Below are positions 1,155 to 29,307 of a stretch of 54,135 nucleotides of DNA, piece by piece. The stretch comes from a virus. Every line of letters begins with the position of its first letter. Position 1 is the first letter of the stretch. The notes under the pieces were generated by a model. It was not told where the DNA came from, did no database searches, and worked only from the letters and a program-made list of their open reading frames with translations. Location: IMG/VR virus record IMGVR_UViG_3300022602_000133, positions 1 through 54,135 of that record. One strand, 5' to 3'. The translations under genes and the position numbers were made by a program.

Positions 1155-1175
1155 AGAACCCCCGTAATTTGCTGT

Positions 1176-1204
1176 AGTATATAACAGTTTTGTTACAAGG
1201 TCAA
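1176..1204 (-). promoter_or_regulatory. Sigma-70-type early promoter for the dNMP kinase
   Basis: On the minus strand a TTGACC -35 hexamer (1199-1204) and a TATACT -10 hexamer (1176-1181) are separated by exactly 17 bases, each matching the bacterial consensus at five of six positions. Transcription would start about 15 bases before the GGGGG ribosome site and the ATG at 1154. A host-type promoter suits an early metabolic gene lying among late structural genes. Confidence 0.6.
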
Positions 1205-1228
1205 AAGATTTGATGCTCAAATTATAAG

Positions 1229-2182: not shown

Positions 2183-2191
2183 ATGTAATCC

Positions 2192-3744: not shown

Positions 3745-3753
3745 TGTTTATCC

Positions 3754-4017: not shown

Positions 4018-4079
4018 ATCATCTCCTTTGTTTTAATGTCCGCCCAACACATCCATGCTGGGTATTTAAAAATTATTCC

Positions 4080-6056: not shown

Positions 6057-6065
6057 TTATTGTCC

Positions 6066-7592: not shown

Positions 7593-7593
7593 A

Positions 7594-7920: not shown

Positions 7921-7923
7921 TTG

Positions 7924-9687: not shown

Positions 9688-9690
9688 TTA

Positions 9691-10476: not shown

Positions 10477-10492
10477 ATTTTTGTCCTCTTAC

Positions 10493-10502
10493 TATATTTA
10501 GC
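10493..10502 (-). promoter_or_regulatory. Possible late promoter for gp13-like gene
   Basis: On the minus strand GCTAAATATA contains the TAAATA core of T4-like late promoters, about 17 bases upstream of the gp13-like ATG. It differs from NATAAATA at one key base, so it is only a candidate. It sits back to back with the plus-strand element at 10506-10513. Confidence 0.35.
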
Positions 10503-10505
10503 TAT

Positions 10506-10513
10506 CGATAAAT
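10506..10513 (+). promoter_or_regulatory. Late promoter upstream of gp14-gp15 and the oxygenase operon
   Basis: GATAAATA matches the T4-like late promoter consensus NATAAATA. It is the only such element seen upstream of the plus-strand genes running to 18161. It is only 8 bases from the gp14-like ATG, so a start about ten bases downstream would give an almost leaderless message. No Shine-Dalgarno site precedes that ATG, which fits. Confidence 0.5.
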
Positions 10514-10521
10514 ATGTTACT

Positions 10522-11976
10522 ATGCCAAGACTCTCATTATATAAACCGGAAAAAGGGCTTGATTACAAGTTCATAGATCGTCAAGCCTCGGAAATGTTCC
10601 AAGCGGGCGGAACTGATGTGTATGTACACAAGTATTTGGGTGCTAATACAGACTCTACGAATGCCACAGCTGATCAGCCTAATTATGCCACAACTGCGGT
10701 TACAAACATACAAGATTTGTTATTTTTAGAAAATCGTGACAGAACTTACGATACAGAAATCTACAGAATTCGCGGGTTGTATAATGTACAAAATATCGAC
10801 TTTAACTTAAGTCAATTTGGTTTGTTCATCGATAACGATACCTTGTACATGACTGTACATATCAACGATTTTATCAAGTACATAGGACGTAAACCCATTA
10901 GCGGCGATGTACTAGAATTGCCACATTTACGTGATGATTTTGCCCTAAATGATTTTGATTTTGCACTGCCAAGATACTATGTTATCGAGGATGTAGGTCG
11001 TGCTAGTGAAGGATTTAGTGTAACTTGGTTCCCGCATTTATACAGATTAAAACTTAAACGTATTACTGATAATCAGCAATTTGCACAAATCTTTAATCAA
11101 CAGGCTACAGATGCTAACGGAGATCCTGTAGAAAATACTACTTTAAGAGACTTGTTAAGTACACACAATCAAGAATTACAAATTAGTGATGCTGTAGTAC
11201 AACAAGCAGAAATAGATGCCCCTAAGAGTGGTTACGAAACTAGACAATATTATACACTGGCTGTTGATCCTACTACAGGAAAACCTGTATTAGATACAGC
11301 AGACGAAACTAGTATACTAGCCAGTAATGCTAGTGCTGGTGTTAATGCTAGTTCAACTAATGCTGTTCCAAAACGAAGCGGCTATTCAGGTTATTTGCTA
11401 GGAGATGGATATCCTGCAAATGGTTACGAGTTTGGTTTTGGTATTCAGTTCCCTGCAAATCCCGCTGCCGATGATTTCTTCTTACGTGTAGATATGTTGC
11501 CTAATAGATTGTATAGATTTGACGGAAAACAAAATGCATGGATTGCTGTAGAAGATTCAGTGCGTATGAACATGACTAATACTGATACTCGTAGTACATT
11601 AAAAACTGGATTTATTAACAACGATAACTGGACTTATAACAACGCTGTTGTTAGTGATTTCTCTAACCTTGCTTTGAATGCTACTGTTGCTAGAACATTA
11701 ATTGATAGTAATGTCACCGGATTATATGTAGTATTGAAATTAGATACAGTTCAATTAGAATATGTAGTTGCAGACCACACTGGAATATTCACATCTTACA
11801 GCCACATGAATGCTCAAGGCATCACAAGTAACAAACTACAAATTAATTTACCTATAATTAATGAAGTACAACAAACAATACCATATGCAGGACAATGGAC
11901 TGTGACAATCTACAATTACAGAGAACCGCAGAAACAATCTATTAGCAAGGTACTTAAACCACAGGCGGATTTATAA
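10522..11976 (+). CDS. Neck protein, T4 gp14-like, enlarged
   Basis: A 484-residue virion protein. Residues ~65-175 follow the plan of T4 gp14: a 'TEIYRIRGLYNVQN' stretch, LSQFGLFIDNDTLYMTVHIN (gp14 has a comparable 'FGMQVQDEVTLSI' strand), and GRKPISGDVLELP (gp14 'EPKEGDLIYFP'), ending in YYVIEDVGRASEGF. gp14 completes the neck with gp13. The protein is nearly twice the length of T4 gp14, the extra being C-terminal beta-rich sequence. I chose ATG 10522 over the upstream in-frame start at 10465, whose first 19 codons overlap the divergent gp13 gene and promoter. It overlaps gp15 by one base (TAATG). Confidence 0.68.
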   Translation: MPRLSLYKPEKGLDYKFIDRQASEMFQAGGTDVYVHKYLGANTDSTNATADQPNYATTAVTNIQDLLFLENRDRTYDTEIYRIRGLYNVQNIDFNLSQFGLFIDNDTLYMTVHINDFIKYIGRKPISGDVLELPHLRDDFALNDFDFALPRYYVIEDVGRASEGFSVTWFPHLYRLKLKRITDNQQFAQIFNQQATDANGDPVENTTLRDLLSTHNQELQISDAVVQQAEIDAPKSGYETRQYYTLAVDPTTGKPVLDTADETSILASNASAGVNASSTNAVPKRSGYSGYLLGDGYPANGYEFGFGIQFPANPAADDFFLRVDMLPNRLYRFDGKQNAWIAVEDSVRMNMTNTDTRSTLKTGFINNDNWTYNNAVVSDFSNLALNATVARTLIDSNVTGLYVVLKLDTVQLEYVVADHTGIFTSYSHMNAQGITSNKLQINLPIINEVQQTIPYAGQWTVTIYNYREPQKQSISKVLKPQADL

Positions 11977-13454
11977 TGCAACATTTTTATGATGGGCAAA
12001 TAAGAAGATACATTACGCAGACTATTCGTGCGTTAAGTAACTTTGTGGTCAAATACGGCGACGGTACACTGGTACGTATACCAGTTATGTATGGTGATGC
12101 AGACCGTCAAGTGGCTAGTATTATTCGTAATAATAGTGAAAACAAAGTTAATAGCGTTCCACGAATAAGCGTCTATGTAAGTTCTTTGGCATTAGATAGA
12201 GATCGATTAAGTGATCAAACTTACGTAGGTACTGTTAATATCCGTGAACGTGATATTGATCCTAATACAAATGCTTATACAACTGGGCAAGGACGCAACT
12301 ATAGCATTGAACGATTGATGCCTACTCCGTTTAAACTAACTATGAAGTGCGATATTTGGAGTGCTAACACTGATCAAAAATTACAAATACTTGAACAAAT
12401 TTTAGTTTTGTTTAATCCTAGTTTAGAACTACAAACCACAGACAACTATATTGACTGGACCAGTTTAACTGTATTAAATCTAAACGATATCAACTGGGAT
12501 AGTAGAACTGTCCCAGTGGGTAATGACACACCAATTGATATTGCTACACTAACATTAGATACTCCTATATGGATTAATCCTCCAGTTAAAGTCAAGCACT
12601 TGGGCGTTATTACTAAAATTGTTACAAGCATGTACAATTCAAGTAGTACTAGCGATACTTATATTGACGGATTAGGTCAAGATCCAATGGCGGCTACAAC
12701 TACATTTACTGATATTTTAAGTTTGGCTATTAATACTCCGCAAGATTATCGTCTAGAAGTTTACAATGGACAAGCTATTTTAATTGGTGCAAATGAAAGC
12801 GTGGTTAGTGTTGGCGGCGGCACTTTAGATATTCCAGTTCGACAAGGAACTCCTATTAATTGGAATATATTATTCAGCCAAACTCCTAACAAATATGTAG
12901 CTGGGTCTAGTCAACTGTATCTAACACAACCTAACGGTAGTATGATTGTAGGAACGTTTGCTATTAACAGTTTAGATGAAACTATACTACAAGTTAATTG
13001 GAATCCAGACACTCTAACAGCTAACACAGGCATAGACAGTCAAGGCAATATAGAACCTGCTGCAGGTTACAATACAAATTCAACACAATATAGACCCAAC
13101 AGCCCAGGCACATTTGATGCTATCATAAATCCACAAACTTATGATCCAAGCGATCCTAACAAACACGGTACTATTTCATCTATTGCTGTTGGTACTAGAT
13201 TCCTTATAATTGAGGATATTGGCGCTGTAAATAATACTACAGTAGCTTGGGGTGCATTAGTAGCAAAAGCTAACGATATTATAGAATACGATGGTTCTGC
13301 ATGGCATGTAATTTTTAATGCTAGCCAGGAATCAAGCATCATGGTGTGGCAGACTAATATATATACTGGAATACAATACTTATGGAACGGTGTTTCCTGG
13401 GTTAAGTCATTCGAGGGTGTATACGAGGCTGCTAATTGGAAAATAGTACTGTAA
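11976..13454 (+). CDS. Tail sheath stabiliser/completion protein, T4 gp15-like
   Basis: A 492-residue protein. It begins with HFYDGQIRRYITQTIRALSN, parallel to T4 gp15 'FYNSSFRRYATLMGDLFSN', and continues with VRIPVMYGDADRQ, PRISVYV, 'MPTPFKLTMKCDIWSANTDQKLQILEQI' in parts, LVLFNPSL and a conserved PIWINPPVKVK. gp15 caps the tail and binds the neck. T4 gp15 is about 270 residues; the extra ~200 here form a C-terminal extension ending in W-rich repeats (DIIEYDGSAWHVIF, YLWNGVSWVKSF). This is the most secure structural call in the window. Confidence 0.85.
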   Translation: MQHFYDGQIRRYITQTIRALSNFVVKYGDGTLVRIPVMYGDADRQVASIIRNNSENKVNSVPRISVYVSSLALDRDRLSDQTYVGTVNIRERDIDPNTNAYTTGQGRNYSIERLMPTPFKLTMKCDIWSANTDQKLQILEQILVLFNPSLELQTTDNYIDWTSLTVLNLNDINWDSRTVPVGNDTPIDIATLTLDTPIWINPPVKVKHLGVITKIVTSMYNSSSTSDTYIDGLGQDPMAATTTFTDILSLAINTPQDYRLEVYNGQAILIGANESVVSVGGGTLDIPVRQGTPINWNILFSQTPNKYVAGSSQLYLTQPNGSMIVGTFAINSLDETILQVNWNPDTLTANTGIDSQGNIEPAAGYNTNSTQYRPNSPGTFDAIINPQTYDPSDPNKHGTISSIAVGTRFLIIEDIGAVNNTTVAWGALVAKANDIIEYDGSAWHVIFNASQESSIMVWQTNIYTGIQYLWNGVSWVKSFEGVYEAANWKIVL

Positions 13455-13885
13455 AAGAACCGATAATTTGTAGTGGTGCGTTATTTTACGCTAAATCTAC
13501 ACGACGTTTTTTACTATTACAAAAAGCACACGGCAAGCACGAAGGGTCTTGGGGCTTAGTCGGCGGTACTAATATCACTGGCGAAACTCCATGGCAAGGT
13601 CTTCAAAGAGAAATCAACGAAGAAATTGGCCCGTGTCCAGAAATAATCAAAACAATTCCACTTGAAACATTTGTCAGCAATGATAAAGTGTTTAATTTTC
13701 ACACCTACTTGTGTGTTATTGAAGAAGAATTTGTACCATATCTAAGCGATGAACATCAAGGGTGGGCATGGGCTACTGTAGATCGCGCTCCAAAACCCTT
13801 ACATCAAGGATTACGCAATAGTTTTAGTTCAAAAACTATTCGCACAAAATTACAAACAGTATTTGATCTAGTGGATTTAATATGA
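13436..13885 (+). CDS. Nudix hydrolase
   Basis: A 149-residue protein with a complete Nudix box at residues 44-66 (GTNITGETPWQGLQREINEE then IGP), giving the metal-binding REINEE and the upstream Gly and Glu at the required spacing. Nudix enzymes hydrolyse nucleoside diphosphates linked to another group; the substrate here is not predictable. The start is TTG at 13436, supported by a GAGG site seven bases upstream and the lack of any in-frame ATG before the first strand (IICSGALFYA). It overlaps gp15 by 19 bases and the next gene by four (ATGA), so it is translationally coupled to both. Confidence 0.85.
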   Translation: MENSTVKEPIICSGALFYAKSTRRFLLLQKAHGKHEGSWGLVGGTNITGETPWQGLQREINEEIGPCPEIIKTIPLETFVSNDKVFNFHTYLCVIEEEFVPYLSDEHQGWAWATVDRAPKPLHQGLRNSFSSKTIRTKLQTVFDLVDLI

Positions 13886-14463
13886 AAGAACATTCAGTTA
13901 ATTCATTAGATAATTTTATTGCAGGTTGGTATCTTGAAGATACAAGTATATGCGACGAAGTTATTGATTTTTTTAAAAATAGCCCAAATCAAGTTCCAGG
14001 AACATTTGGACAAAATTATGCCAAAGTCGATTTAAACGGTAAAGACAGTACTGATGTGTATGTTGAATGGAAGTCCACTATTGGTCAACGTTATTTTAAA
14101 CATCTTAATCAAGTTGCACAACAATATATTGCCAAATACCCTTATTGTAATGAATATGCCAAATGGGGAGTGATCCAACCATTTAACATTCAATACTACA
14201 AACCCGGTGGCGGCTTTTATGGCTGGCACACTGAACGCAGTAGTACCATAATGCCGCTAGTCACAAGACATTTGGCATTTATGACGTATTTAAATGATGT
14301 TAGTGACCAAGGAGAAACAGAGTTTTTCCACCAAAAGATTAGGATAAAACCAGAGAAAGGCCTTACACTAATATGGCCTGTAGACTGGACACTAACACAT
14401 CGAGGAATTCCTTCCCCCAGTCAAGAAAAATATATAACAACGGGGTGGTTTAACTACGTATGA
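13882..14463 (+). CDS. 2-oxoglutarate/Fe(II) oxygenase (prolyl-hydroxylase-like)
   Basis: A 193-residue double-stranded beta-helix oxygenase. Probable Fe(II) ligands are H115 or H116 with E118 in GGFYGWHTERS, and distal H173 in TLTHRGIPS; K183 in KYITTGWF is placed to bind 2-oxoglutarate. RHLAFMTYLNDV-SDQGETEFF is the typical strand-turn-strand of phage P4H-like enzymes, and IKPEKGLTLIWP the next strand. The first motif is HxE rather than the usual HxD. The substrate is unknown; related enzymes hydroxylate Pro in proteins or small molecules. It overlaps both neighbours by the four-base ATGA, marking one operon. Confidence 0.85.
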   Translation: MKEHSVNSLDNFIAGWYLEDTSICDEVIDFFKNSPNQVPGTFGQNYAKVDLNGKDSTDVYVEWKSTIGQRYFKHLNQVAQQYIAKYPYCNEYAKWGVIQPFNIQYYKPGGGFYGWHTERSSTIMPLVTRHLAFMTYLNDVSDQGETEFFHQKIRIKPEKGLTLIWPVDWTLTHRGIPSPSQEKYITTGWFNYV

Positions 14464-15206
14464 TTAGTTTCTTTTTTAAACGTCGTCAAAGAACTGTAGA
14501 CTGTTTTACCGACGATCCTAGTGCTTACAAATATCATGCTATCACTCCGGCTGCAGATTACTATCCAGAGTGGTGGTTAAAAATGCCCAACTATCAAACT
14601 GTTCCTGATAAAAATGGGTTGGCTGTTGATACTCCTACTATAAAACGATGTGTCGGGTTGATGAATTTATATCAACGAGGAGTAGTATTACCTTTATGGT
14701 CAAGTATTGCTATCGAAACTACACAAGAAGGTTATAGATATTCATTTGCCAAACAACATTATAACAAAGAATTACCATTATCGGATTATCATCCAGATTG
14801 GCAAACAGGCCCAGCATTTAATGATGTATTACATTTAAAAATGATTAGCCCTTGGTTCCTTGTTCAATCGGAATATTACAAATATGTATTTCAACCGATG
14901 ACTTGGAATACTGTAAATCAGTGGAATCAGTATACAATTCTGCCAGGCGTTATGGATTTTAAATATCAAAATTCCACTAATGTCAATATGTTCCTTGCTA
15001 AAAACAGTCGAATTGACATTGAAGCCGGTACTCCTATGTACCAAATTATACCAATAACTGATGATGAAATTATCTTTAAAAATCATTTAGTCGAAACAGA
15101 ACATGTAAAAAAAATTTACAATAGTAGATTCGGAACTTATTCCAATTCTTATAAAAATATTAAGAAATTTTATGAAAATAAAAAACGTTGCCCTTTAGGA
15201 TTTTAA
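14460..15206 (+). CDS. Unassigned protein of the oxygenase operon
   Basis: A 248-residue soluble protein I cannot assign with certainty. Recognisable segments are YYPEWWLKMPNYQTVP near residue 34, TIKRCVGLMNLYQRGVVLPLW with SSIAIE at ~59-85, a central 'NDVLHLKMISPWFL' strand, and AGTPMYQIIPI near 195. The 'PEWW...', 'C.gl.dl...G...P.W.di' and late 'GTP..q..P' layout resembles an uncharacterised family (possibly DUF6065) I associate with oxygenase clusters in aquatic phages; that comparison is from memory. The C-terminus is Lys-rich. Placement between two oxygenases in an overlapping operon suggests a shared pathway. Confidence 0.55.
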   Translation: MISFFFKRRQRTVDCFTDDPSAYKYHAITPAADYYPEWWLKMPNYQTVPDKNGLAVDTPTIKRCVGLMNLYQRGVVLPLWSSIAIETTQEGYRYSFAKQHYNKELPLSDYHPDWQTGPAFNDVLHLKMISPWFLVQSEYYKYVFQPMTWNTVNQWNQYTILPGVMDFKYQNSTNVNMFLAKNSRIDIEAGTPMYQIIPITDDEIIFKNHLVETEHVKKIYNSRFGTYSNSYKNIKKFYENKKRCPLGF

Positions 15207-15788
15207 ATGATTAAAGATATTATAGTATTAGATGATTTTATTTGTAAACAATATCAAGATGATATTGAAACAACATTATTAGGAGATTCAAACACTCCTT
15301 GGTATATGTTAGACGATGTTACACTAGGATTTAAAGATCTTCCTAGTAAAAACTTTGGACTAAGTCATGTGTTAAAAAACGACCACGGCATCATTAGTAA
15401 TCTTTATCGATTTATGATGCCCATGGTGTTTACAGCTATAGATAAAATTGGTTACACAGTTACCGATGTATATTTGGCAAGAAGTTTTACACAGTTGCCA
15501 TCACTTAATAACGAACCCAATTGGCCGCATGTGGACATGAATATTCCACACCTAGTATGTTTGTATTATGTAAATGATTCACAAGGCGATACTGTTATCT
15601 ATAACGAAATGGTCGATGATGTGCTTGTTACTGAAGTTAATACATATCAATACACCGAGCTTCAACGTATAACTCCTAAAAAAGGAAGAGTTGCTATTTT
15701 CAGTGGTACTAGATTTCATTCTAGTGGAAAACCTGTTAGTGGCAAAAGATGTATTCTTAATTTTGATTTAAATGTTAAACCACAATAA
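15207..15788 (+). CDS. 2-oxoglutarate/Fe(II) oxygenase
   Basis: A 193-residue oxygenase. Fe(II) ligands are H108 and D110 (NWPHVDMNIPH, a canonical HxD) with H171 (GTRFHSSGKPVSGKR), and R181 is the likely 2-oxoglutarate contact. LVCLYYVNDSQGDTVIYNE is the expected strand pair, with KKGRVAIFSG before the distal His. The sequence differs clearly from the first oxygenase of the operon, so they probably act on different substrates. It starts directly after the TAA of the upstream gene (TAAATG) and overlaps the next gene by 17 bases. Confidence 0.85.
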   Translation: MIKDIIVLDDFICKQYQDDIETTLLGDSNTPWYMLDDVTLGFKDLPSKNFGLSHVLKNDHGIISNLYRFMMPMVFTAIDKIGYTVTDVYLARSFTQLPSLNNEPNWPHVDMNIPHLVCLYYVNDSQGDTVIYNEMVDDVLVTEVNTYQYTELQRITPKKGRVAIFSGTRFHSSGKPVSGKRCILNFDLNVKPQ

Positions 15789-16407
15789 TTATTTTCCTGT
15801 CGAACCCTGGTTTCCTGTTCCATTATATATTAATTGGGTAAGCCAAAAAAATTTTAATGGTATACAACAAGACTTTCAGCGGGTCGTTGATATATTAAAA
15901 GCAAATGGCACTTTTACATATCGCGAAGACTGGAACAGTCATAAAACTAGTGACGTTACTTTTACAAAAAACTTGTTTGAAGAACATAATTTAACTTTAT
16001 TTCAACAAGAACTAGACGAGCATATTTTCAATTATTTAAATTTAATTAATAGTCCAGTTGCTAAAAAAGAAGAAAATTTTAAATATAAGATATTTGGCAG
16101 CTGGATGACACTAAGTACTAAAAAAGACTACGCACACATTCATACACACGGAAGTAGTGACCTTTCTGGAGTTTATTACTTCCAAACTAACGGCAATGAT
16201 GGTAGTATTTTCTTTGAAAATCCTAGTAAGTATTTGGAAAATTCCTATTGCTTTTCGCATATAGATAGTAGAGCATCTTGGAAACCTGAAGTGGGTAAGT
16301 TACTATTATTCCCAGGATGGTTACCTCATGGCGTAACTACTAACACAACTGACCACGAACGTATTAGCGTGAGTTTTAATATTATATTTGAGAGGAATTA
16401 TGGTTGA
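15772..16407 (+). CDS. 2-oxoglutarate/Fe(II) oxygenase, tandem copy A
   Basis: A 211-residue member of the family whose core reads 'HxH..g..LSGVYY'. Here AHIHTHGSSDLSGVYYF at residues 121-137 supplies H122/H124/H126 and D130 as candidate ligands; LPHGV (H186) is the distal His and R197 in ERISVSF the co-substrate Arg. It shares with the next gene the N-terminal WFPVPLY, DWNSHKTSD, GSWMTL and C-terminal VSFNI-x-FER, so the two are tandem paralogues. TIGR02466-type enzymes share this core; substrates are unknown. Overlaps of 17 and 8 bases with neighbours indicate coupling. Confidence 0.8.
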   Translation: MLNHNNYFPVEPWFPVPLYINWVSQKNFNGIQQDFQRVVDILKANGTFTYREDWNSHKTSDVTFTKNLFEEHNLTLFQQELDEHIFNYLNLINSPVAKKEENFKYKIFGSWMTLSTKKDYAHIHTHGSSDLSGVYYFQTNGNDGSIFFENPSKYLENSYCFSHIDSRASWKPEVGKLLLFPGWLPHGVTTNTTDHERISVSFNIIFERNYG

Positions 16408-16987
16408 ACTTTGGTTTCCAACACCTATATATTATGGAGATATAACAGGTGACACATTTACTACTGTACAAGAAGAGTTCGACTCTGTCTTTAAAACACT
16501 AATCAATGATAGGACATTTCAATATATGCCGGATTGGAATAGCCATTTATTAAGTGATATTAAGTTTGAAAAAAACTTAATAGAAGATTATCATCTCGAT
16601 GCTTTCAGAGACGAATTAGATCGTCACATACAAGAATATTTAAAAGAAATAGAATTTCCAGGTAAAAAGAAATATAAAATTGCCGCATCCTGGATGAGTT
16701 TTTATCAAAAAGGTGACTTTGCACATACTCACTGTCACGGAGATGCTGATTTATCAGGTGTATACTATTTTAAATCGGTTAACGAGAATGGTAAAATCTT
16801 TTTCGATACTCCTGTGAAGACTTTGACTAATTCTTATTGTTTTAAGCATTTGGTTAGCAGAGTTTATTACCCTCCTAAAGAAGGAAGACTAATGCTTTTT
16901 CCTAGTTGGGCAGAACATGGTGTGCAAACTATGACAGAGGAAGGTCATAGAGTTGCTGTTAGTTTTAATATAGAATTTGAGAGATAA
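16400..16987 (+). CDS. 2-oxoglutarate/Fe(II) oxygenase, tandem copy B
   Basis: A 195-residue paralogue of the preceding gene. It has WFPTPIYYG at the start, DWNSHLLSD near 45, ASWMSFYQKGDFAHTHCHGD at 96-115 followed by ADLSGVYYF, distal H173 in AEHGV and R184 in GHRVAVSFNIEFER. Candidate metal ligands are H109/H111/H113 and D115. The start is ATG 16400, directly after an AGAGGA site, not the in-frame TTG at 16388. The two copies differ most in the N-terminal 90 residues and in the loop after VYYF, which suggests different substrates after duplication. Confidence 0.8.
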   Translation: MVELWFPTPIYYGDITGDTFTTVQEEFDSVFKTLINDRTFQYMPDWNSHLLSDIKFEKNLIEDYHLDAFRDELDRHIQEYLKEIEFPGKKKYKIAASWMSFYQKGDFAHTHCHGDADLSGVYYFKSVNENGKIFFDTPVKTLTNSYCFKHLVSRVYYPPKEGRLMLFPSWAEHGVQTMTEEGHRVAVSFNIEFER

Positions 16988-16988
16988 T

Positions 16989-18161
16989 ATGAAAATTGCT
17001 GTATTAGGTGCCGGTACCGCTAGTTGTATTTTTAGTATGATTGCTTGCAGGTTTATTTCTAAGCCTGTTGAAATTACTTGTATTCATGATCCTAGTATAT
17101 CTACTATACAAGTGGGCGAAACCGCTAGTCCAGCAATATTATCTGCACTACAAGATTGTTTAGATTTTGAAGTATCTGAAGATTTAGAAAAATTAGATGG
17201 TACATTACGTACCGGAGTTAAACATTTCTGGAGTCAAGCTAGCAATGATTTTTCTATACTATATGATAGACAATTTGGTATACACCTAAACAGTACAAAA
17301 CTTAGCGAATTTGTCATGGGTCGCTTAAAAGAAAAATATCCTTTCTTTAAAGAACAACATGATACAATAATCAAAACAAACAAAACCACAGGCGAAGTAA
17401 CAACAGAATCTGGCTCCGAAGTATTTGATTTAGTAGTGGACTGTACAGGATTTGCTAACCCTGAATTATTTAAAACAGGTGTGTTAGTTAAACCTTCGTT
17501 TGCAGCTGTTAACTCTGTTATTATCTGGCCTGAATGGAAACAATACAACGAATATTATACTACAGCTCAAATACACGATAATGGTTGGATGTTTGGAGTT
17601 CCCCTTACATCAAGAAAAGCATGGGGATATTTGTACAATAACGAAATTACTACATATGAAGAAGCCAGAGAAGATTTTAAACGGTTAAAAAATCTCGATG
17701 ACGACACGTTAGATAAATGTCGTAGTTTTTCATGGAATCAATATCTAAGAGTTAAAGCTATTGACGAGCGTGTGTTATTTCTTGGTAATAATTTATTTTT
17801 CTTTGAGCCAGCAGGTGCAATACCTTTGCACTATTATTTGAATATTAGTAGAATTATTTCTGAAGATTTTGGAAATGTTGAATTTAATTGGCGTTATCAT
17901 AAAATGATTAACACATATCATCAACAAATGATGAATCAACATCAAGATGTAACTGCTATTGCTTACGCAGGTGCTAATCGACTAGAAACTGACTTTTGGA
18001 ATAAAACAAAAACGTCTGCAATCGCTAAATTACAGACGTCCGATGATTGGCACAAGTGGCTTAGAAATCAATTAGAAACTGATCATTATTTTACTCACCC
18101 AAAAGAATTAATGATTCAATACATTAATAAATTTGGGTTAGATCTTGATCAGTTTTTGTAA
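16989..18161 (+). CDS. Divergent flavin-dependent halogenase-like protein
   Basis: A 390-residue flavoprotein of the tryptophan-halogenase group. The FAD-binding motif GAGTAS is at 7-12, VGETASPAI at 42-50 matches the 'VGE.T.P' element, and K78 in RTGVKHFW occupies the position of the catalytic Lys (K79 in PrnA). DCTGF is at 151-155 and LGNNLFFFEPAGA near 275. The halogenase WxWxIP motif is altered to NGWMFGVPL (second Trp replaced by Phe, Ile by Val), and the protein is ~130 residues shorter than its neighbour. It may be a halogenase with a changed substrate, or a flavin monooxygenase. ATG 16989 follows GAGAGA; its 3' end overlaps the convergent halogenase by 13 bases. Confidence 0.75.
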   Translation: MKIAVLGAGTASCIFSMIACRFISKPVEITCIHDPSISTIQVGETASPAILSALQDCLDFEVSEDLEKLDGTLRTGVKHFWSQASNDFSILYDRQFGIHLNSTKLSEFVMGRLKEKYPFFKEQHDTIIKTNKTTGEVTTESGSEVFDLVVDCTGFANPELFKTGVLVKPSFAAVNSVIIWPEWKQYNEYYTTAQIHDNGWMFGVPLTSRKAWGYLYNNEITTYEEAREDFKRLKNLDDDTLDKCRSFSWNQYLRVKAIDERVLFLGNNLFFFEPAGAIPLHYYLNISRIISEDFGNVEFNWRYHKMINTYHQQMMNQHQDVTAIAYAGANRLETDFWNKTKTSAIAKLQTSDDWHKWLRNQLETDHYFTHPKELMIQYINKFGLDLDQFL

Positions 18162-19711
18162 ATATTTTCTTTCAAGTATTCTATTATACTAGGATAGTCT
18201 TTAACAGCTTCATTCCATGTTGCTGTATGTTTACCTACAGCCTCTACTTGCTTGCTAAAATACTGTTTGGCATCTATCAAATCATATAAGAAATTATAAG
18301 CTGATAGCGTTGACATATCGCAAGGGTTATAATTCATACCTGCAGCAATACAATGAAAACCGCCTTCTGGATTAAATTGGAATCGTTGATATCTTTCCAT
18401 AGAATATGTTTTAACTCCTGGGATTGCTACAGCCTTTGGTTCGCTGAGTGTAGGATCGTAAACACGTTCCAGGTTATCTCTCCAATAATCTGTATCATCT
18501 CTTACGCTTAGTGCATAATGCATGGCTACAAATTCAGCAAATTGTCTAAATTCAGCTTTACATGCTAGGTTAAATCCATCACGTTCGAACCTACTAGATT
18601 GTCCTCTGCTAAGAGCTCTTACAAGATGCATTAAAAATTTGTGTACTGTGTACAACCCATTAGACTCTAATGGTTCAATAAATCCAGCACTTAATCCAAT
18701 AGCACACACATTCTTTTCCCAGACTCTTTCATGAATGCCTGTACGCATTGTAATATTTTTAAATTCTAATCCTTCAGTTTCGTATCCTTTGGATTTTAAT
18801 TTTTCAATAAATTCTGTTTTAGCAGCTTCATCTGAAATGTACTTGTCACTATAAACATATCCTGATCCCATACGGCTCCATAAAGGAATTTCCCACATCC
18901 AACCGTTAGATAATGCGGTACAGTTAGTATACACTACAAGTTGTTTTTCTTTATCTGTGTATTCTATTTTTGTTGCCCAGGCTTTATTATTAGGCAACAT
19001 ATCTGCGTAACTTTCAAACGGAACATTAAGTGCTTTATCTAATAACAAGCTCTTAAATCCTGTGCAATCGATAAACAAATCAGCAGTAACTTTAGTACCA
19101 TCAGCTAGTATTAGATGTTCGACTCCAGTTTCTCCAGTTTGTACATCTTGTACTTCTGCTTGTATATGTGTTAGACGGCCTTTACAATATACATCACGCA
19201 ACCAAATGCCAAACTTAGTTGCATCAAATTGAAATGCTGTTGTTCTTAAATATTGGTATCCTGGTAATACGCCGTTTAAATTTTTATCAAACTTATTAGC
19301 GTTAACTAATGCCATGGTTGAAAAATAACTATCAGCATAACTGCTATTTGGAGTTTCTGGGTACAGAGCTTTCTTAATATGCCAGTCGTTTATACCAGTA
19401 ACCGATTCTTCTAAAACAGGAAAACCGAACGGATAATGAAATCCTGTATCACCTACTTGATAAAAGTCTTCAAATCTAATACTAAGTTTATAAGTAGCAT
19501 CACATGCGGCCATAAAATCAGTATCTTTAATGCCTAGCATGTTTAACCAAACATTTATACCTTGAATAGTGCTTTCGCCTACACCAACTGTTGGCACATC
19601 TGGGCTTTCGATTAAGACAATTTCTTTATTTGGAAATTGATTTACTAGTGTAGCTGCTGTCATCCATCCAGCACTACCACCTCCAACAATTACAATTTTA
19701 TTTGTACGCAT
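18149..19711 (-). CDS. Flavin-dependent (tryptophan-type) halogenase
   Basis: A 520-residue enzyme with all family signatures: GGGSAGWMTAA at 10-20 for FAD, VGVGESTIQG at 42-51, the catalytic Lys K75 in ATYKLSIRF, DCTGF at 215-219, the halogenase-specific WMWEIP at 271-276, and GLSAGFIEPLESNGLY at 339-354, whose Glu corresponds to the active-site acid. The reaction would use FADH2, oxygen and a halide to form hypohalous acid, transferred through the Lys to an electron-rich substrate. No flavin reductase gene is in the window, so FADH2 must come from elsewhere. A viral halogenase (VirX1) is known from a cyanophage, and this is a plausible relative. Ribosome site AGAGGA precedes ATG. Confidence 0.9.
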   Translation of the reverse strand: MRTNKIVIVGGGSAGWMTAATLVNQFPNKEIVLIESPDVPTVGVGESTIQGINVWLNMLGIKDTDFMAACDATYKLSIRFEDFYQVGDTGFHYPFGFPVLEESVTGINDWHIKKALYPETPNSSYADSYFSTMALVNANKFDKNLNGVLPGYQYLRTTAFQFDATKFGIWLRDVYCKGRLTHIQAEVQDVQTGETGVEHLILADGTKVTADLFIDCTGFKSLLLDKALNVPFESYADMLPNNKAWATKIEYTDKEKQLVVYTNCTALSNGWMWEIPLWSRMGSGYVYSDKYISDEAAKTEFIEKLKSKGYETEGLEFKNITMRTGIHERVWEKNVCAIGLSAGFIEPLESNGLYTVHKFLMHLVRALSRGQSSRFERDGFNLACKAEFRQFAEFVAMHYALSVRDDTDYWRDNLERVYDPTLSEPKAVAIPGVKTYSMERYQRFQFNPEGGFHCIAAGMNYNPCDMSTLSAYNFLYDLIDAKQYFSKQVEAVGKHTATWNEAVKDYPSIIEYLKENIYKN

Positions 19712-19809: not shown

Positions 19810-20181
19810 TTACATTTTTCCGTGGTCGGCTACTTCACTAGCTGGAACAGCAATAGGCTGAGGAGGAGCGTTTTCCAGTCCAGTTGGATGATATGTTTCT
19901 GTAACTTCCAAAGGAGGTAAATTTTCTGGAGGAATATGATCAGCCATAACTTGCTGAGCAACTCCTTCGTGTGCTGCTTTATGTTGGGCATCTAATTCTG
20001 CTGCCGCAGCAGCGTCGGCTTCAACTTGTGCCATTACTTCGGCCCATGTTGGAGGTTCTAAACCTTGAGGATCTTCCCATTGAGTAAAATTAGTACCTTC
20101 TAATTGATAGACGGCACCTGGACGAAGTTTCCACATAGCGACATCGACGCCAAATGTATAAGTTGGTAAAAATTCTGACAT
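19810..20181 (-). CDS. Small fibre-cluster protein with Ala-rich helix
   Basis: A 123-residue acidic protein. The N-terminal part (MWKLRPGAVYQLEGTNFTQW, then EDPQGLEPPTWAEVMAQVEA) has the 'lRPGa.y.l....yt...W......P.W.Ev.a.v..' pattern seen in small proteins beside phage fibre genes. An Ala-rich probable helix follows at ~50-80, then a Pro-rich tail ending in HGKM. No catalytic motif is seen. It is the last gene before the UUCG terminator and has its own consensus late promoter (20207-20214) and AAGGAAA ribosome site. A fibre-assembly or structural role is inferred from context. Confidence 0.6.
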   Translation of the reverse strand: MSEFLPTYTFGVDVAMWKLRPGAVYQLEGTNFTQWEDPQGLEPPTWAEVMAQVEADAAAAAELDAQHKAAHEGVAQQVMADHIPPENLPPLEVTETYHPTGLENAPPQPIAVPASEVADHGKM

Positions 20182-20206: not shown

Positions 20207-20214
20207 TATTTATA
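20207..20214 (-). promoter_or_regulatory. Consensus T4-type late promoter
   Basis: Minus-strand TATAAATA, an exact match to the T4 late promoter consensus, 26 bases upstream of the ATG at 20181 and just past the stop of the glycine-rich protein gene. It leaves a short leader containing AAGGAAA. Confidence 0.7.
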
Positions 20215-20222
20215 TTGACTTA

Positions 20223-23200
20223 TTAATCCCATTTAATAATTACGATACCGTCGGCACCGTGTCCGCCAGCATTATTTGTATTGTAGTGGCTTCCACCACC
20301 ACCACCACCGCCGGTATTTTGTCCAGCATTAGCACCTTGTAGGTTAGCTTGTAGGCCGTTTGCTCCGATGTTTCCACGATCACCCCAATGTAAACTCCAA
20401 CCGCCACCGTATTGACCAGCAATAGCTGAGTTACCGTTACTAACAGCACCTCCACCTCCGCCACCAAGACCGCCAGAGCCGCCATTACTAGAATATCCAG
20501 ATCCAGCGCCGCCGCCAGCAAAATATAGCATGGTTCCCAAATGATTGAATGGCAATCCTGTGCCGCCGTTTGCCGGGCTGGTAGATCCAGCAGTTCCTGC
20601 TCCACCACCACCACCTGGATACCAAGCGTAAATTCCAAATGATCCAGAATTTCCTTGTCCTGCTGTTCCTGATGCTGCTGCACCACCGCCGTAGCCGCCG
20701 GAGCCAGCAGAACCACCGCTTGGTGCTTGTGCTCCTCCCGATGCTCCACCACCTGATCCTCCAGAACTTGCTGGATATCCAGATTGATCATGGAAACTTG
20801 CGCCACCGCCACCGCCGATAGCAGTTAATGTACCAAATACACTATTGCCGCCATTTTGTCCACGTTCAGTAGCACGATCGCGAGCTTGGGCGCCACGGCC
20901 TCCTATGCCAACTGTTACAGAATATGATTGACCTGGTTGCACTTGGTAGCCATCTTTATACAATAATCCACCGGCTCCGCCACCGCCAGCCATATCGCAT
21001 CCGCCGCCTCCGCCGCCGGCAACCACTAGTACTCTAACACTGTTGACACCTGGAGGGCAAGACCATGTGCCCGATTGTAAAAACATACTGCATTTAGTTG
21101 GCATCTGATAGCGAACAATAACAATACCATGTCCGCCTGCGGCACCAATTGCTCCTGCACCACCGCCGCCTCCACCGCCGCCGGTGTAGTTGATACCTTG
21201 GCTACTACCAGCAATTGAGCTGCTCTGTCCCCAGCCTTGTCCGCCACGTCCGCCACTTTGTCCGCCCATGCCAAATGCACTGTTCTGTAAATATGCACCG
21301 ACTGCTGCTCCGCCACCCAATCCATAGTTATTTCTGCCAGCTGGATATCCACCTGCTCCACCGCCGCCACCATATGGCATTGCTCGTCCGGAAATATCAT
21401 ATAATACTCCAACGCCGCCGTTGCCTCCTGAGTCTCCTAATCCATCACAGTATCCTGGGCCACCGGCTCCGCCGCCGCCACCTGCTCCTGCATTACTGAG
21501 CGTAACATTTCCTCCGCCGGCATTTCCAGCTCCTGGTTGATAACCAGTAGAATATGAGCTGTATGCTACACCGCCACCTGATCCACCGGCCCCGTTAGTG
21601 CCAGTGCTACCGCTATTGTATGGTTGGCCGGCTCCGCCGCCTAATGCAAATATATTTCCAAATTGGCTGTAACCTCCTTGATTTCCAACAACGTTATTTC
21701 CGTTTACTAACTGTCCGCCTGCACCTACTACTACAGGAATACTTGTTCTTGCAGTAACAGCATACTGAGCATTATAAATTACTCCGCCTGCTCCGCCTCC
21801 ACCTCGCGGTCCGTTACCATTGTTGTTACCGTCATATGTACTAGCACCGCTACCACCTCCGCCTACTACAAGAACTTCTACGTTGCCTGTAAAGTTAGGA
21901 GTAAAATACTGAGCGCCGCCAATATTACGATAAAAATGTGTTCTATATCCATTTGCTTCGATATCAGTAGCTGTATAAACTTCTGGCTTCCAAATATATA
22001 CGCCTGATACACCGTCACCTGTATACGTTACGTTTGTAGTGCCAGTACTTGAATTTGACAACGCCCACACATAGTCCGACGATGTATTTGCCTGATACCA
22101 ATAAGTAGATTTTAAACGCATCCAACCATTACCTGCATCAAATACTTCACCAATTGCACCAGTACTTTGGGTCACTGTTCTGTTAATTAAGTCAAAGTAA
22201 TTATATGCGTAACCGCCAGATCCGCCGTGACGCATTAAGAAATATTGACGACTACGATATTTTACATAAACACTCATGACACTCATGAATCCATATCCGC
22301 TACCATTACTTGGCAACTGATAAATTCTATGGTCAATATTAGCTGATGTGTTTTCAGTCATTATAAACGCAGTGCTACTACCATCAGGTGCTATTTGACC
22401 TGTAGTTATTGTAACGTTATTCTGCGTCCAAATAGCGTTTGTTAAATCATTACTATAAGTTAACATGTTTGAACTAGCATAGTTCACTTTAGGTTGACTA
22501 GATTTCCAACCATAAACATCGCTAGTTTCTAAAACTTGGCCGTCGGTATTATAACGTAATTGTCCAATATCTGCATCATTATTATATCGAATAATAATAA
22601 CACCGCTACCGCCTGAACCAGTAGACCCTCCAGCTCCGCCACCGCCACCGCCTCCGGTGTTAGGTACTCCATTAGGGCTTGCTCCGCCGTTGCTATTTCT
22701 ATTATCTCCATCGCCACCGCCGCCAAGGCCACCACGAATCATATAATTAGTACCGCCGGCACTTCCTCCTCCGCCATACCACTGACTTGTTCCAGTAATA
22801 TTAAATGGTAAACCGTTACCGCCAGCAGCTCCATAACCCAAGTTTTCACCTCCTGGTCCGCCTGCACCGCCACCCCCGCCACCTCCGTAAGAGCCGTTTT
22901 GCAAACTTACTCCAGCGCTGCCACCGCCTGGATATCCTTGTCCGTAGATTGCGCGGCCACCGCCTCGAGTTGCAGGTGTATATAATTGTCCTAGTGCGTT
23001 TGGCCCAGTTGAGTTTCCACCACCTCCGCTTGCACCATCATATCCTTGACATTGGTAATAGTAGCCACCACCGCCACCACCATATGCAATGATAGTTCCA
23101 AACACGCTATTGCCTCCAGCTTGACTTGGTTGTCCTGGAGATCCGCCACCACCGACAGTATAACTAACTGATCCACCTGGAGTTACAGCATAGTTTGATT

Positions 23201-23432
23201 GATAAACAACTCCTCCTGCGCCCCCTCCAGCTGCAACGTCAGCTCCTGATCCGCCTCCGCCGCCTACTACTAGTACTTGTACGTTACTAACACCTGCCGG
23301 AACGTTCCAAGTTCCCGACCCTACACTGGTTAATTGAACTACTGTAGCCGATGCTTGACTTGAACGCTGTCCCGATGTTCCTGCAGGAACACTTGCTGAT
23401 CCTGTAACTGTGGTATTTTTTAATGTTGCCAT
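20223..23432 (-). CDS. Glycine-rich adhesin with three polyglycine modules
   Basis: A 1069-residue predicted receptor-binding protein. It has a short N-terminus (LKNTTVTGSASVPAGTSGQR), glycine-rich modules at ~31-287, ~515-785 and ~790-1069, and a beta jelly-roll at ~320-500 (NMLTYSNDLTNAIWTQNN start, 'MSVYVKYRSRQYF', 'NGWMRLKSTYW', 'VYIWKPEVY'). Each module opens with a 'V.VLVVGGGG' strand, has runs of three to seven Gly, a GGNSVFG-T-x-A-x-GGGG centre and closes with 'G.VI(I/V)RY'. Polyglycine-II sandwiches in T4-like adhesins (S16 gp38) give a precedent for Gly runs as host-range tips. The late promoter at 23456-23463 lies just upstream. Confidence 0.78.
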   Translation of the reverse strand: MATLKNTTVTGSASVPAGTSGQRSSQASATVVQLTSVGSGTWNVPAGVSNVQVLVVGGGGGSGADVAAGGGAGGVVYQSNYAVTPGGSVSYTVGGGGSPGQPSQAGGNSVFGTIIAYGGGGGGYYYQCQGYDGASGGGGNSTGPNALGQLYTPATRGGGRAIYGQGYPGGGSAGVSLQNGSYGGGGGGGAGGPGGENLGYGAAGGNGLPFNITGTSQWYGGGGSAGGTNYMIRGGLGGGGDGDNRNSNGGASPNGVPNTGGGGGGGAGGSTGSGGSGVIIIRYNNDADIGQLRYNTDGQVLETSDVYGWKSSQPKVNYASSNMLTYSNDLTNAIWTQNNVTITTGQIAPDGSSTAFIMTENTSANIDHRIYQLPSNGSGYGFMSVMSVYVKYRSRQYFLMRHGGSGGYAYNYFDLINRTVTQSTGAIGEVFDAGNGWMRLKSTYWYQANTSSDYVWALSNSSTGTTNVTYTGDGVSGVYIWKPEVYTATDIEANGYRTHFYRNIGGAQYFTPNFTGNVEVLVVGGGGSGASTYDGNNNGNGPRGGGGAGGVIYNAQYAVTARTSIPVVVGAGGQLVNGNNVVGNQGGYSQFGNIFALGGGAGQPYNSGSTGTNGAGGSGGGVAYSSYSTGYQPGAGNAGGGNVTLSNAGAGGGGGAGGPGYCDGLGDSGGNGGVGVLYDISGRAMPYGGGGGAGGYPAGRNNYGLGGGAAVGAYLQNSAFGMGGQSGGRGGQGWGQSSSIAGSSQGINYTGGGGGGGGAGAIGAAGGHGIVIVRYQMPTKCSMFLQSGTWSCPPGVNSVRVLVVAGGGGGGCDMAGGGGAGGLLYKDGYQVQPGQSYSVTVGIGGRGAQARDRATERGQNGGNSVFGTLTAIGGGGGASFHDQSGYPASSGGSGGGASGGAQAPSGGSAGSGGYGGGAAASGTAGQGNSGSFGIYAWYPGGGGGAGTAGSTSPANGGTGLPFNHLGTMLYFAGGGAGSGYSSNGGSGGLGGGGGGAVSNGNSAIAGQYGGGWSLHWGDRGNIGANGLQANLQGANAGQNTGGGGGGGSHYNTNNAGGHGADGIVIIKWD

Positions 23433-23455: not shown

Positions 23456-23463
23456 TATTTATT
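23456..23463 (-). promoter_or_regulatory. Late promoter for the 1069-residue adhesin
   Basis: Minus-strand AATAAATA matches NATAAATA. It overlaps the stop codon of the upstream adhesin gene (23462-26209) and lies 24 bases before the ATG at 23432, so the three adhesins need not be expressed at the same level. Confidence 0.5.
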
Positions 23464-29200: not shown

Positions 29201-29307
29201 GTTGTTCCAGTAGAAGTAAAACTAACGATAGTTCGTTGTGCTGTAGATCCAGCTGGAATTGTTAAACTACTGGTATCGCTAACTGTGGTGTTTTTAAGAA
29301 TTGCCAT
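26212..29307 (-). CDS. Glycine-rich adhesin with C-terminal LamG-like lectin domain
   Basis: A 1031-residue protein with two polyglycine modules (~30-295 and ~316-570), then 'GLIRYNTTTSNFELYNGDKGW' and a ~430-residue C-terminal region. Within it, residues ~845-1025 are a concanavalin-like/LamG sandwich: SGGSFECWYFLNS, 'PGRWYHAIGVFDTNNTYLYING', 'NGKLSICRIYNRPLTAQEVAQNF'. The region at ~600-840 (IAHWDAGHPRSKVFY start; W- and Y-rich) is unassigned but could be a further lectin-like domain. It probably binds glycan on the host surface. No strong ribosome site is present: GTAAATAAACAAT precedes ATG. Confidence 0.8.
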   Translation of the reverse strand: MAILKNTTVSDTSSLTIPAGSTAQRTIVSFTSTGTTSWVAPAGVTKIKVLVVAGGGGGGFSFGGGGGAGGLIYNPAYTVTPGNSYTVTVGSGGAGGASGVAGSGGQNGGSNIGSGVSGGNSVFDTLTAIGGGGGGSDSGNPDNGANGGSGGGGSIDSNLNASGTANQGNSGGQGNRTYYTGGGGGGAGSAGSNSNVKEIAGTGGQGLLYAISGVPTWYAGGGGGGAGAQVHGWPGVGGAGGGGYGGGTSSPYGYNNTIGQPGTAGTGGGGGGGTQGYAGGAGGSGVVIINYSTETVEIFSKPGSTTWTAPTNVASVEVLVVAGGGGASNGDYATGGGGGGAGGVIYNSAYTVIPGNSYTVTVGAGGAGVTGQNTPGNNGGNSIFDSLTAIGGGRGGSYNGVSAAVGGSGGGGSYQVNSGAAGTSGQGFAGGTGGGVVRTGGGGGGAGGVGNNSTDTQAGQGGPGLLFSITGYATYYAGGGGGGAADWTDPPTLSGRKPGAGGVGGGGGGAQAISSTGNSAGGYNGSPGTGGGAGGNSNNVSSANAAAITSASGGSGVVIIRYNSLPGQGSTNRGLIRYNTTTSNFELYNGDKGWITQSASHEIVGKGLIAHWDAGHPRSKVFYPQKLLDDNVWDTGNNSIGTFNLNGTTSANQRLIGSDPWGRYNILWEARAQATNNGEGGWNSNTFTVDPAKPHRFTEWIRRTVIGTGTTYFGTNNVNNTSDLSANGNPYFYALGWPVQINQWFLWVAHCHPNSRQSGATNLHPQSGLYTVEGGPDYKMYGGQTDFVMSSSSINQRTYLYYTSDTSARQQFYRPRVDPLDGTEPSLSALLNDDPVDPYQWYDIKGFYHMVMVNNNITYDNQYKALVYNGSNSYTTTPITYNFDFHSGGSFECWYFLNSISSGQGFLSISPTPSYLNFYMNSNATMRWEVIGTTSSSYNDLNSTTVHVPGRWYHAIGVFDTNNTYLYINGVLESSQTNYTNSPFYITGYVTTGTYGGYLNGKLSICRIYNRPLTAQEVAQNFNAERGRHGI

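Follow-up and report, generated by a model that had tools for sequence, protein, structure and literature searches.

What does a run of oxygenase and halogenase-family genes do in the gap between the neck and the fibre genes of a T4-like phage? The question is raised by IMG/VR record IMGVR_UViG_3300022602_000133, of which we analysed a stretch of 54,135 nucleotides (the window). A reading made from the sequence alone had seen there a tailoring pathway acting late in infection, either on virion proteins or on a host metabolite. Our analysis partly supports this interpretation: we think it fairly probable that the island is a cassette, expressed late, whose enzymes tailor receptor-binding fibre proteins carrying the Gly_rich_2 domain (PF21722). 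Linkage to this one fibre domain family is strong and favours fibres over a host metabolite as what the enzymes would modify.

All island genes were found where the sequence-only reading had placed them in the 54,135-nt window. Open reading frames together with Pfam and PHROG matches confirm the gene set and its overlapping or abutting plus-strand arrangement, with G facing H. The order is Nudix hydrolase A, 2-oxoglutarate/Fe(II) (2OG) oxygenase B, C, the 2OG oxygenases D, E and F, G, and then the facing H; gp15 flanks the island on one side and three glycine-rich fibre genes on the other. We named gp14, the first gene of the plus-strand unit, from its place between gp13 and gp15. With ORF-finder starts, neighbouring genes between gp15 and G overlap by up to 20 bases or just abut, and two of the junctions are 4-base overlaps (13882 and 14460). 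To judge from the sequence, F more likely starts at ATG 16400 and G at ATG 16989. G and H are convergent and overlap by 13 bases.

Table 1. Genes and promoter-like motifs of the island and its surroundings (window positions).
Feature	Position	Strand	Basis
late-promoter-like GATAAATA	10507..10514	+	15 bases before gp14
gp14-like neck protein	10522..11976	+	phrog_11591 'virion structural protein' 6e-84; ATG 10522
gp15, tail sheath stabiliser	11976..13454	+	PF16724 4.1e-24; phrog_11196
A, Nudix hydrolase	13436..13885	+	PF00293 (NUDIX) 1.6e-15; overlaps gp15
B, 2OG/Fe(II) oxygenase, prolyl-4-hydroxylase (P4H)-like	13882..14463	+	PF13640 (2OG-FeII_Oxy_3) 2.8e-11; P4H structure 7.3e-5
C, predicted dUTPase-fold protein, divergent phage family	14460..15206	+	predicted-model comparison
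D, 2OG/Fe(II) oxygenase	15207..15788	+	phrog_274 9.5e-31; ligand residues
E, TIGR02466-type 2OG/Fe(II) oxygenase, first of tandem pair	15772..16407	+	PF13759 (2OG-FeII_Oxy_5) 5.8e-20; TIGR02466 above cut-off
F, TIGR02466-type 2OG/Fe(II) oxygenase, second of tandem pair	16388..16987	+	PF13759 1.8e-17; TIGR02466 above cut-off
G, short flavin-dependent-halogenase-like protein	16977..18161	+	PF04820 (Trp_halogenase) 4.5e-29
H, predicted VirX1-type flavin-dependent halogenase	18149..19711	-	PF04820 3.3e-109; VirX1 6qgm 3.8e-100
I, small protein upstream of H	19810..20181	-	sits where other cassettes have a conserved small gene
exact T4-type late motif TATAAATA	20207..20214	-	before I, with H behind I
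fibre, three Gly_rich_2 stretches, proposed substrate	20223..23432	-	PF21722 7.8e-50
fibre, three Gly_rich_2 stretches, proposed substrate	23462..26209	-	PF21722 2e-54
fibre, two Gly_rich_2 stretches and LamG-like domain, proposed substrate	26212..29307	-	PF21722 2.5e-51; PF13385 5.6e-19

By its conserved residues, H is a flavin-dependent halogenase of the VirX1 type. PF04820 matches it over its full length (366 bits, residues 5-467), and it retains K75, E346 and WMWEIP, which correspond to the catalytic Lys, the catalytic Glu and the WxWxIP motif of these enzymes. The same catalytic residues occur in its homologue VirX1, which we take to come from cyanophage Syn10 and which is reportedly known as a stand-alone enzyme whose natural substrate is not known. 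A close syn9 halogenase (L005:12001-13590) belongs to a block of this type. H also weakly matches QhpG (3.6e-8) and LodB (1.8e-7). LodB, GoxB and QhpG are flavin-enzyme maturases that act on protein tryptophan; unlike them, H scores far below their family cut-offs and keeps the halogenase residues.

G is only halogenase-like, because it has Arg at the position of the catalytic Lys of the family. Among 145 aligned rows this column holds 137 Lys, five Arg and three gaps, the Arg rows being G and its copies in four contigs (L001-L004). WMFGVP takes the place of WxWxIP; short relatives (L018, L047, L049, L057, L100, L103-L105) have the Phe in common with G and keep the Lys. Both features argue against G as a working halogenase, and in this phage it is probably one no longer. 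A linked flavin reductase, suggested earlier as a check, did not turn up: PF01613 has no match in the 23 records scanned, of which 12 are fragments. Reduced flavin may come from a host reductase.

The assignment of four 2OG oxygenases by motif holds in full for two of them. B (H116, E118, H173, K183) and D (H108, D110, H171, R181) have the complete iron triad and the 2OG-binding basic residue. E and F keep the HxH...H and Arg of their family (97-98% and 88% of 153 rows), with the carboxylate position not placed. D lies below the Pfam cut-off (0.0032), and the PHROG that it matches is labelled 'DNA endonuclease V', yet the members of this PHROG carry 2OG ligands. These residues are kept in most homologues, so that the widespread ligand loss named earlier as evidence against a single pathway is not seen. 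Other cassettes also contain a JmjC_2-type 2OG member, and it and the P4H-like members come from families in which the enzymes studied hydroxylate proteins. A homologue of A follows gp15 in L004, L031, L047, L049, L065 and L087.

For C, previously unassigned, the predicted model (pLDDT 84.1) indicates a dUTPase fold. Among the matches listed by Foldseek against the PDB, 49 of 50 are dUTPases and one is a dCTP deaminase, at E-values of 1.8e-3 to 0.02 and none below 0.001; structural comparison gave a VIA Z of up to 10.6 (rmsd 3.1, 127 aligned). In the viral structure library the top ranks are unnamed phage proteins. The relatives of C include syn9 gp43, SCREM1_70 and a halovirus member that touches Pfam DUF6065. 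By tblastn, relatives in isolates came from two haloviruses only; the wider family was reached only with profile searches. Single-protein scans with C and with G each returned only L004, a near-identical contig of 7.2 kb that is identical over both proteins. The dUTPase motif set is incomplete in C: PF00692 gives 15.5 bits, below its cut-off of 22, and regular expressions of our own for the motifs find motifs 2 and 5 in none of 33 family members. The same expressions find a motif-3-like pattern in 6/33 and a motif-4-like pattern in 15/33, the window copy having both.

With Nudix and dUTPase-fold neighbours, and with the two patterns that C keeps, the enzymes could be thought to modify nucleotides or phage DNA, A and C serving as helpers. 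We give this hardly any credence: all 33 C members miss motifs 2 and 5, the 2OG members match P4H-like, TIGR02466 and JmjC families, and the island combines late-type motifs with linkage to fibres.

The late promoter reported upstream of gp14 was recovered as the late-promoter-like GATAAATA, from which gp14, gp15 and A to G would be transcribed. Four of the five sites in the window with NATAAATA, which we take to be a T4/cyanophage late motif, sit 15-33 bases before a gene start, and the fibre gene nearest to H has a late motif 31 bases before its start. Sigma-70-like sites are at chance level (48 against 47.4 expected). These late-type motifs are in keeping with action late in infection. We did not retain the late promoter as stand-alone evidence, since the exact TATAAATA occurs once in the window against 8.4 expected, rarer than chance, though most NATAAATA sites precede genes.

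The arrangement of the island is more than chance, because similar blocks recur on other viral contigs. They adjoin Gly_rich_2 fibre genes in numerous viruses, cyanophage isolates as well as uncultured ones, and one contig (L049) nearly reproduces the gene order of the window. With a Gly_rich_2 subfamily as anchor, 72 of 76 viral loci have a halogenase no further than 10 kb away, a result that speaks for this subfamily only, since the search was seeded from halogenase-linked loci. The count is 52/56 without near-copies, 57/61 without 15 loci that overlap earlier ones, and 42/46 without either; two of the four loci lacking a halogenase end at the fibre gene. The median gap from fibre to halogenase is 534 bp, and the two share a strand in 58 of the 72. 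The conserved small gene is present in 74/76 loci, at least two 2OG genes in 57/76 and C in 57/76; gene I of the window has no detectable homology to that small gene. The order Gly_rich_2 fibre, halogenase(s), C, 2OG, uninterrupted by any annotated gene, appears in 40 loci and not in the remaining 36.

Neutral anchors gave a different picture. A halogenase was found in 0/80 loci around UvsX; as this control is biased (83-94% identical to the UvsX of one phage), we added gp13, which gave 3/80. Two of the three gp13 loci that bear Gly_rich_2 have a halogenase (Fisher p 0.0028). Anchoring on the halogenase, PF21722 exceeds its cut-off in 21/42 contigs against 0/42 UvsX contigs, the other 21 being fragments without a match above cut-off. 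The halogenase, C, the 2OG genes and the Gly_rich_2 fibre are thus linked across diverse viruses, and the counts from both anchors bear out the view of the island as one linked set.

Among isolates, 14 genomes have both a halogenase and Gly_rich_2, and in 10 of them the two lie no more than 8 kb apart (circular-shift null: mean 2.0, maximum 8 in 10,000 shifts). Across 15 isolate genomes, 50 of 196 Pfam-detected 2OG genes are within 8 kb of a full-length halogenase, against 19.7 +/- 6.2 expected (reached in 0/5000 shifts), and 146 lie away. The excess of 2OG genes near Gly_rich_2 is modest (44/211 against 22.5 expected; 12/5000 shifts reach it). The density of 2OG genes per 10 kb is 2.50 around viral halogenases, 0.39 around UvsX and 0.04 around bacterial halogenases; the first of these values is favoured by the profiles, whose source was the isolate and halogenase loci. 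Around bacterial relatives of the halogenase the cassette set is absent.

Might the gap between fibre and neck simply be an insertion hotspot, gathering auxiliary genes with unrelated jobs? 2OG genes do occur all over these genomes, including clusters without a detected Gly_rich_2 fibre (L191, L204, L207), and halogenases sit elsewhere too: for those of S-B64 and P-SSM2, and for the second copies of S-RIM44 and Sf-FP1, the distance to a Gly_rich_2 match exceeds 50 kb, and S-MbCM6 has a halogenase and no such match in its genome. Single copies at unrelated loci, once named as grounds against one pathway, are therefore real, but order is often conserved. Gene number varies, with up to five halogenases in some loci and eight oxygenases in others. 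Eleven of 80 halogenase loci have no 2OG gene; of these, eight contigs were searched for PF21722 and four were positive. In two loci that lack a 2OG gene (L048, L034) the halogenases lie 66 and 205 bp from the Gly_rich_2 match, and three fragments (G021, 76.6 kb; G033, 39 kb; G035, 47 kb) combine 2-5 halogenases and a Gly_rich_2 fibre with no gp15 found. Since order and composition also recur across diverse viruses, a hotspot seems to us quite improbable.

The proposed substrates are clear members of their family: the window fibres score 170-185 bits against PF21722 and five isolate proteins 32-41 (cut-off 24.3). We infer that they are receptor-binding fibres. Domains of the window type are rich in Tyr and Asn with few His, those of the marine type rich in His, and no target residue is common to the two, which counts against the proposed tailoring. 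The domain model was too poor (pLDDT 61) for a structure search; no PDB sequence matches the domain at E 0.1. In the S-SZBM1 paper, the virion mass-spectrometry table lists _51 and _52, neighbours of the Gly_rich proteins, and the main text has no occurrence of Gly_rich _48 and _49 or halogenase _46. This absence fits rarity, few tryptic peptides, or modification.

In the published passages concerned, these are independent metabolic genes or, in the case of one jumbo-phage cluster, genes for making secondary metabolites, and no link to fibres is drawn. Cyanophage 2OG-Fe(II) oxygenases and prnA figure in such passages as auxiliary metabolic genes, with roles given gene by gene in host metabolism, nitrogen sensing, DNA repair or as antibiotic (PMC3037559, PMC9602691, PMC9964418, PMC9146016, PMC10436341). 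The gene families are those of the island and the phages partly the same, but there they do not form one block with fibres; the S-SZBM1 authors describe 2OG genes scattered in their phage. The S-SSM6a-type cluster resembles the island in setting a halogenase beside several enzymes of the 2OG and cupin-like kinds within a single cyanophage block. It differs in its carbamoyltransferases, HemK-like methylase and HAD phosphatases; the relevant passage interprets it as metabolite or capsule decoration, without a fibre link (PMC7824862). The earlier description of the island as undescribed as a system needs qualifying, because this halogenase/2OG cluster of jumbo cyanophages is already in print under another reading.

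Following Iyer et al. 2021, who so read the S-SSM6a cluster in that passage (PMC7824862), the enzymes could make a small halogenated or hydroxylated metabolite late in infection (an antibiotic, signal or toxin), the fibre neighbourhood being incidental; the Nudix and dUTPase-fold proteins hint at small or nucleotide-like ligands. We regard this as unlikely, and retain the antibiotic and nitrogen-sensing roles of the literature only within it. The linkage is to one fibre domain family, and S-SSM7, with the same halogenase match as S-SSM6a, has three Gly_rich_2 genes just before its cluster. Moreover, PHROGs place none of the 28 window proteins scanned (the two largest and the small ORFs left out, in a fragmentary record) in carbamoyltransferase, methylase (HemK-like included), HAD phosphatase, assembly-line or export families.

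The S-SSM7 block also holds sugar-type kinase, nucleotidyltransferase, isomerase and epimerase genes, as if the set decorated a glycan, on the host surface or borne by the fibre, with halogen or hydroxyl placed on the sugar or a linked group. This strikes us as very unlikely. The same 28 proteins have no sugar-gene match, none is labelled as such in syn9, S-CREM1 and Sf-FP1, whose blocks contain many genes without names, and flavin halogenases act on electron-rich aromatics.

For the fibre-tailoring cassette we propose the following scheme. Supplied with reduced flavin by the host, H would add halogen to aromatic side chains in the fibre domain. Hydroxylation of other side chains would fall to B, D, E and F, elsewhere joined by a JmjC-type 2OG enzyme, and every enzyme would have a site of its own. 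C and the small gene beside the fibre might act as adaptor or chaperone, which are our best guesses. Such changes could affect host binding, folding or stability. Clusters for RiPP tailoring likewise pair an encoded polypeptide with linked modifying enzymes, and some phages glycosylate their own virion proteins; here, unlike in either, the enzymes would act on a large fibre protein, by halogenation plus hydroxylation.

The link to fibres suggests where viral halogenases and the many cyanophage 2OG oxygenases may find their substrates in nature. The cassette may write halogens and hydroxyls on the phage's own fibres late in infection, a post-translational code that could tune which hosts are bound; on this we are evenly divided between belief and doubt. 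If true, supposed metabolic genes would become a system for maturing virions, which would bear on host range and on what enzymes can do to proteins.

The island of the window, a virus contig of 54,135 bases, was found as the sequence-only reading had described it: six plus-strand genes and a facing pair. Its claim of a Nudix hydrolase (protein A) and four 2-oxoglutarate/Fe(II) (2OG) oxygenases (B, D, E and F) is borne out by Pfam, PHROGs and NCBIfam, D being assigned through its PHROG and ligand residues. The same three databases place the flavoprotein G and the oppositely oriented halogenase H in the Trp_halogenase family, and give no assignment for protein C. Annotations commonly give phage 2OG oxygenases the name 'ferrochelatase' or 'DNA endonuclease V', and a related PHROG reads 'minor coat protein' (phrog_274, phrog_3531 and phrog_1644 are concerned). 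D is an example, and such labels conceal the cassette in annotation.

The GATAAATA motif precedes gp14, gp15 and the enzyme genes. An exact TATAAATA precedes H and the small gene I upstream of it, in the direction opposite to the enzyme genes, and one of the fibre genes (Table) has a separate motif of its own. A gene start follows four of the five NATAAATA sites of the window at a distance of 15-33 bases; we take this motif to be the late promoter, as in T4-like phages.

Coordinates of the features discussed
Feature	Record	Coordinates
Oxygenase D	window	15207-15788
Oxygenases E and F	window	15772-16987
Fibre gene with its own motif	window	20223-23432
Conserved small gene beside Gly fibre	L005	9977-10471
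Conserved small gene beside Gly fibre	L006	11473-11961
Block with sugar-type genes	S-SSM7 (L009)	754-16332
Lone phage-type halogenase	L266 (JABDFK010000005.1)	7986-9587

In H, K75, E346 and WMWEIP are as in working halogenases, and VirX1 is its best match among solved structures. In G, an Arg stands in the Lys column and the motif reads WMFGVP. Over 145 aligned halogenase-family ORFs this column holds Lys in 137, Arg in five and a gap in three, the Arg rows being G of the window and its own copies or the near-identical contig L004. Short relatives have the Phe in common with G, yet keep the Lys, so that on the alignment its loss in G looks recent. The iron ligands are intact in B and D, as are the HxH...H and Arg conserved in the family of E and F; B is similar to prolyl 4-hydroxylases (7.3e-5). 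Across 153 aligned rows of PF13759-type phage oxygenases, it is HxH, not HxD, that is conserved at the presumed iron site.

A profile of C gathers 33 ORFs from the window, its copy L004 and other loci, 26 loci in all. Members syn9 gp43 and S-CREM1 SCREM1_70 lie directly behind a halogenase, and a halovirus member brushes Pfam DUF6065. The structure model, built with 20 sequences, has a pLDDT of 84.1. Its 50 listed Foldseek PDB matches are 49 dUTPases and one dCTP deaminase, none below an E-value of 0.001; VIA-align gives a Z of 10.6 over 127 residues. By what we take to be the dUTPase motif definitions, motifs 2 and 5 are missing in all 33 members; a motif-3-like segment occurs in 6 and a motif-4-like one in 15, the window copy having both. 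From these matches and missing motifs, the modelled C is a dUTPase fold whose set of defining motifs is incomplete.

Among isolates, blocks of one or two halogenases with several 2OG genes adjoin genes for fibres or other structural proteins in syn9, S-CREM1, S-WAM1, Sf-CH11, Sf-FR1, S-RIM44, Sf-FP1, P-TIM40, P-RSM6 and S-SZBM1; their 'hypothetical' genes were identified by profiles built in the present analysis. The genes gp13-gp15 come after the block in Sf-CH11, Sf-FR1, S-RIM44 and Sf-FP1, variant blocks occur in S-SSM7 and HTVC008M, and the halogenase is located elsewhere in S-B64, P-SSM2 and S-MbCM6. Genome-wide maps of PF13640 and PF13759 (2OG) and PF04820 (halogenase) over 17 records show a full halogenase no more than 8 kb away for 50 of 196 2OG genes (15 genomes), against 19.7 (sd 6.2) under circular shifts; none of 5000 shifts attains 50, a statistic that, the genomes being kin, is not a clean probability.

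The fibre domain Gly_rich_2 (PF21722) is present in the tested block-adjoining gene of syn9, S-CREM1, S-WAM1, Sf-FR1 and Sf-CH11, and in all three fibres adjoining the window island. Fifteen genomes of the 17 records have a halogenase and 14 of them also Gly_rich_2; the two lie within 8 kb in 10 of the 14 (circular shifts: mean 2.0, maximum 8), S-SSM7 (8.1 kb) and HTVC008M (9.4 kb) falling narrowly outside. Near Gly_rich_2 we count 44 of 211 2OG genes in the 17 records versus 22.5 expected, a number attained by 12 of 5000 shifts. The S-SSM7 block also holds a sugar-type kinase, a nucleotidyltransferase, an isomerase and an epimerase together with Gly_rich_2, halogenase and 2OG genes, a hint that the same fibre may be glycosylated.

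In uncultured viruses, 80 halogenase-anchored loci have a 2OG gene in 69 (at least two in 53; within 300 bp of a halogenase in 58), C in 17 and at least two halogenases in 19; 80 loci around the neutral anchor UvsX have a 2OG gene in 25 (at least two in 6), C in one and a halogenase in none, a comparison favouring the halogenase set since the 2OG profiles derive from isolate and halogenase loci. With 42 of the 80 loci of each anchor searched, PF21722 exceeded its threshold in 21 of the 42 contigs with a halogenase (at least 10 kb) versus 0 of 42 UvsX contigs (at least 8 kb). The gap from halogenase to domain is 66 to 4,895 bp in the 13 domain-bearing contigs searched for both; the halogenase search covered 16 contigs, selected in part for bearing the domain. 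Around gp13, the other neutral anchor, 3 of 80 loci have a halogenase, 3 a Gly_rich_2 (Gly) fibre and 2 both. Up to five halogenase paralogues occur on one viral contig (five in L056 and L086, four in L041 and L087).

Anchoring on the fibre itself, we found a halogenase in 72 of 76 loci (52 of 56 without near-copies), and in 57 of 61 (42 of 46) once 15 loci overlapping earlier ones were removed; the search was seeded from halogenase-linked domains, and the result covers that Gly_rich_2 subfamily. Two of the four loci lacking a halogenase end 2 and 25 bases past the fibre gene. Conservation of gene order in related contigs, raised by the sequence-only reading, held in part: 40 of the 76 loci run Gly fibre, halogenase(s), C and 2OG with no intervening annotated gene, 37 of them continuing via 2OG genes to a JmjC-type gene, and the remaining 36 have other layouts, one of them that of the window, where enzyme and fibre genes point towards each other. 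Locus L049 has the window arrangement, except for extra 2OG and C copies, the absence of small gene I and the other strand for the long halogenase. A different small conserved gene, of about 150-165 codons, accompanies the Gly fibre genes in 74 of the 76 loci and lies between fibre and halogenase in four isolates; two members tested had no Pfam match.

None of the best 80 bacterial genome loci for the halogenase shows the cassette known from viruses. Seventy-nine of their halogenases are at most 37% identical, with five 2OG genes in the 1,218 kb around them and neither C nor Gly fibre. The other, a single gene in a Deltaproteobacteria MAG (L266), is 50% identical and has no 2OG, C or Gly fibre gene at its locus; a phage-bacterium transfer is possible.

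Against a modification of the fibre protein by the island enzymes count the 146 of 196 isolate 2OG genes that lie away from halogenases and the lack of a shared target residue between window-type and marine-type Gly domains. So do the S-SZBM1 virion data, whose main text names the neighbours _51 and _52 and not the Gly_rich pair. Published accounts, in the passages concerned, handle halogenase and 2OG genes individually, as auxiliary genes (PMC9964418, PMC2984593, PMC10452541, PMC3037559, PMC9602691, PMC9146016, PMC10436341) or, in one case, take a related cluster of jumbo phages to synthesise a secondary metabolite or decorate the capsule (PMC7824862). In the passages covered, with subscription journals and preprints outside the scope, we found no published link of these genes to fibres.

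Modification of the fibre is favoured by the close linkage of the genes to a single fibre domain, by motifs of late type and by the protein-substrate families. P4H-like and JmjC_2 families are known for protein substrates, and JmjC_2 is present in syn9 and S-CREM1. Together these observations point to the fibre as the target; the reaction itself we infer. Halogens on aromatics, with hydroxyls, would alter the binding chemistry of the fibre or lock its glycine-rich fold.
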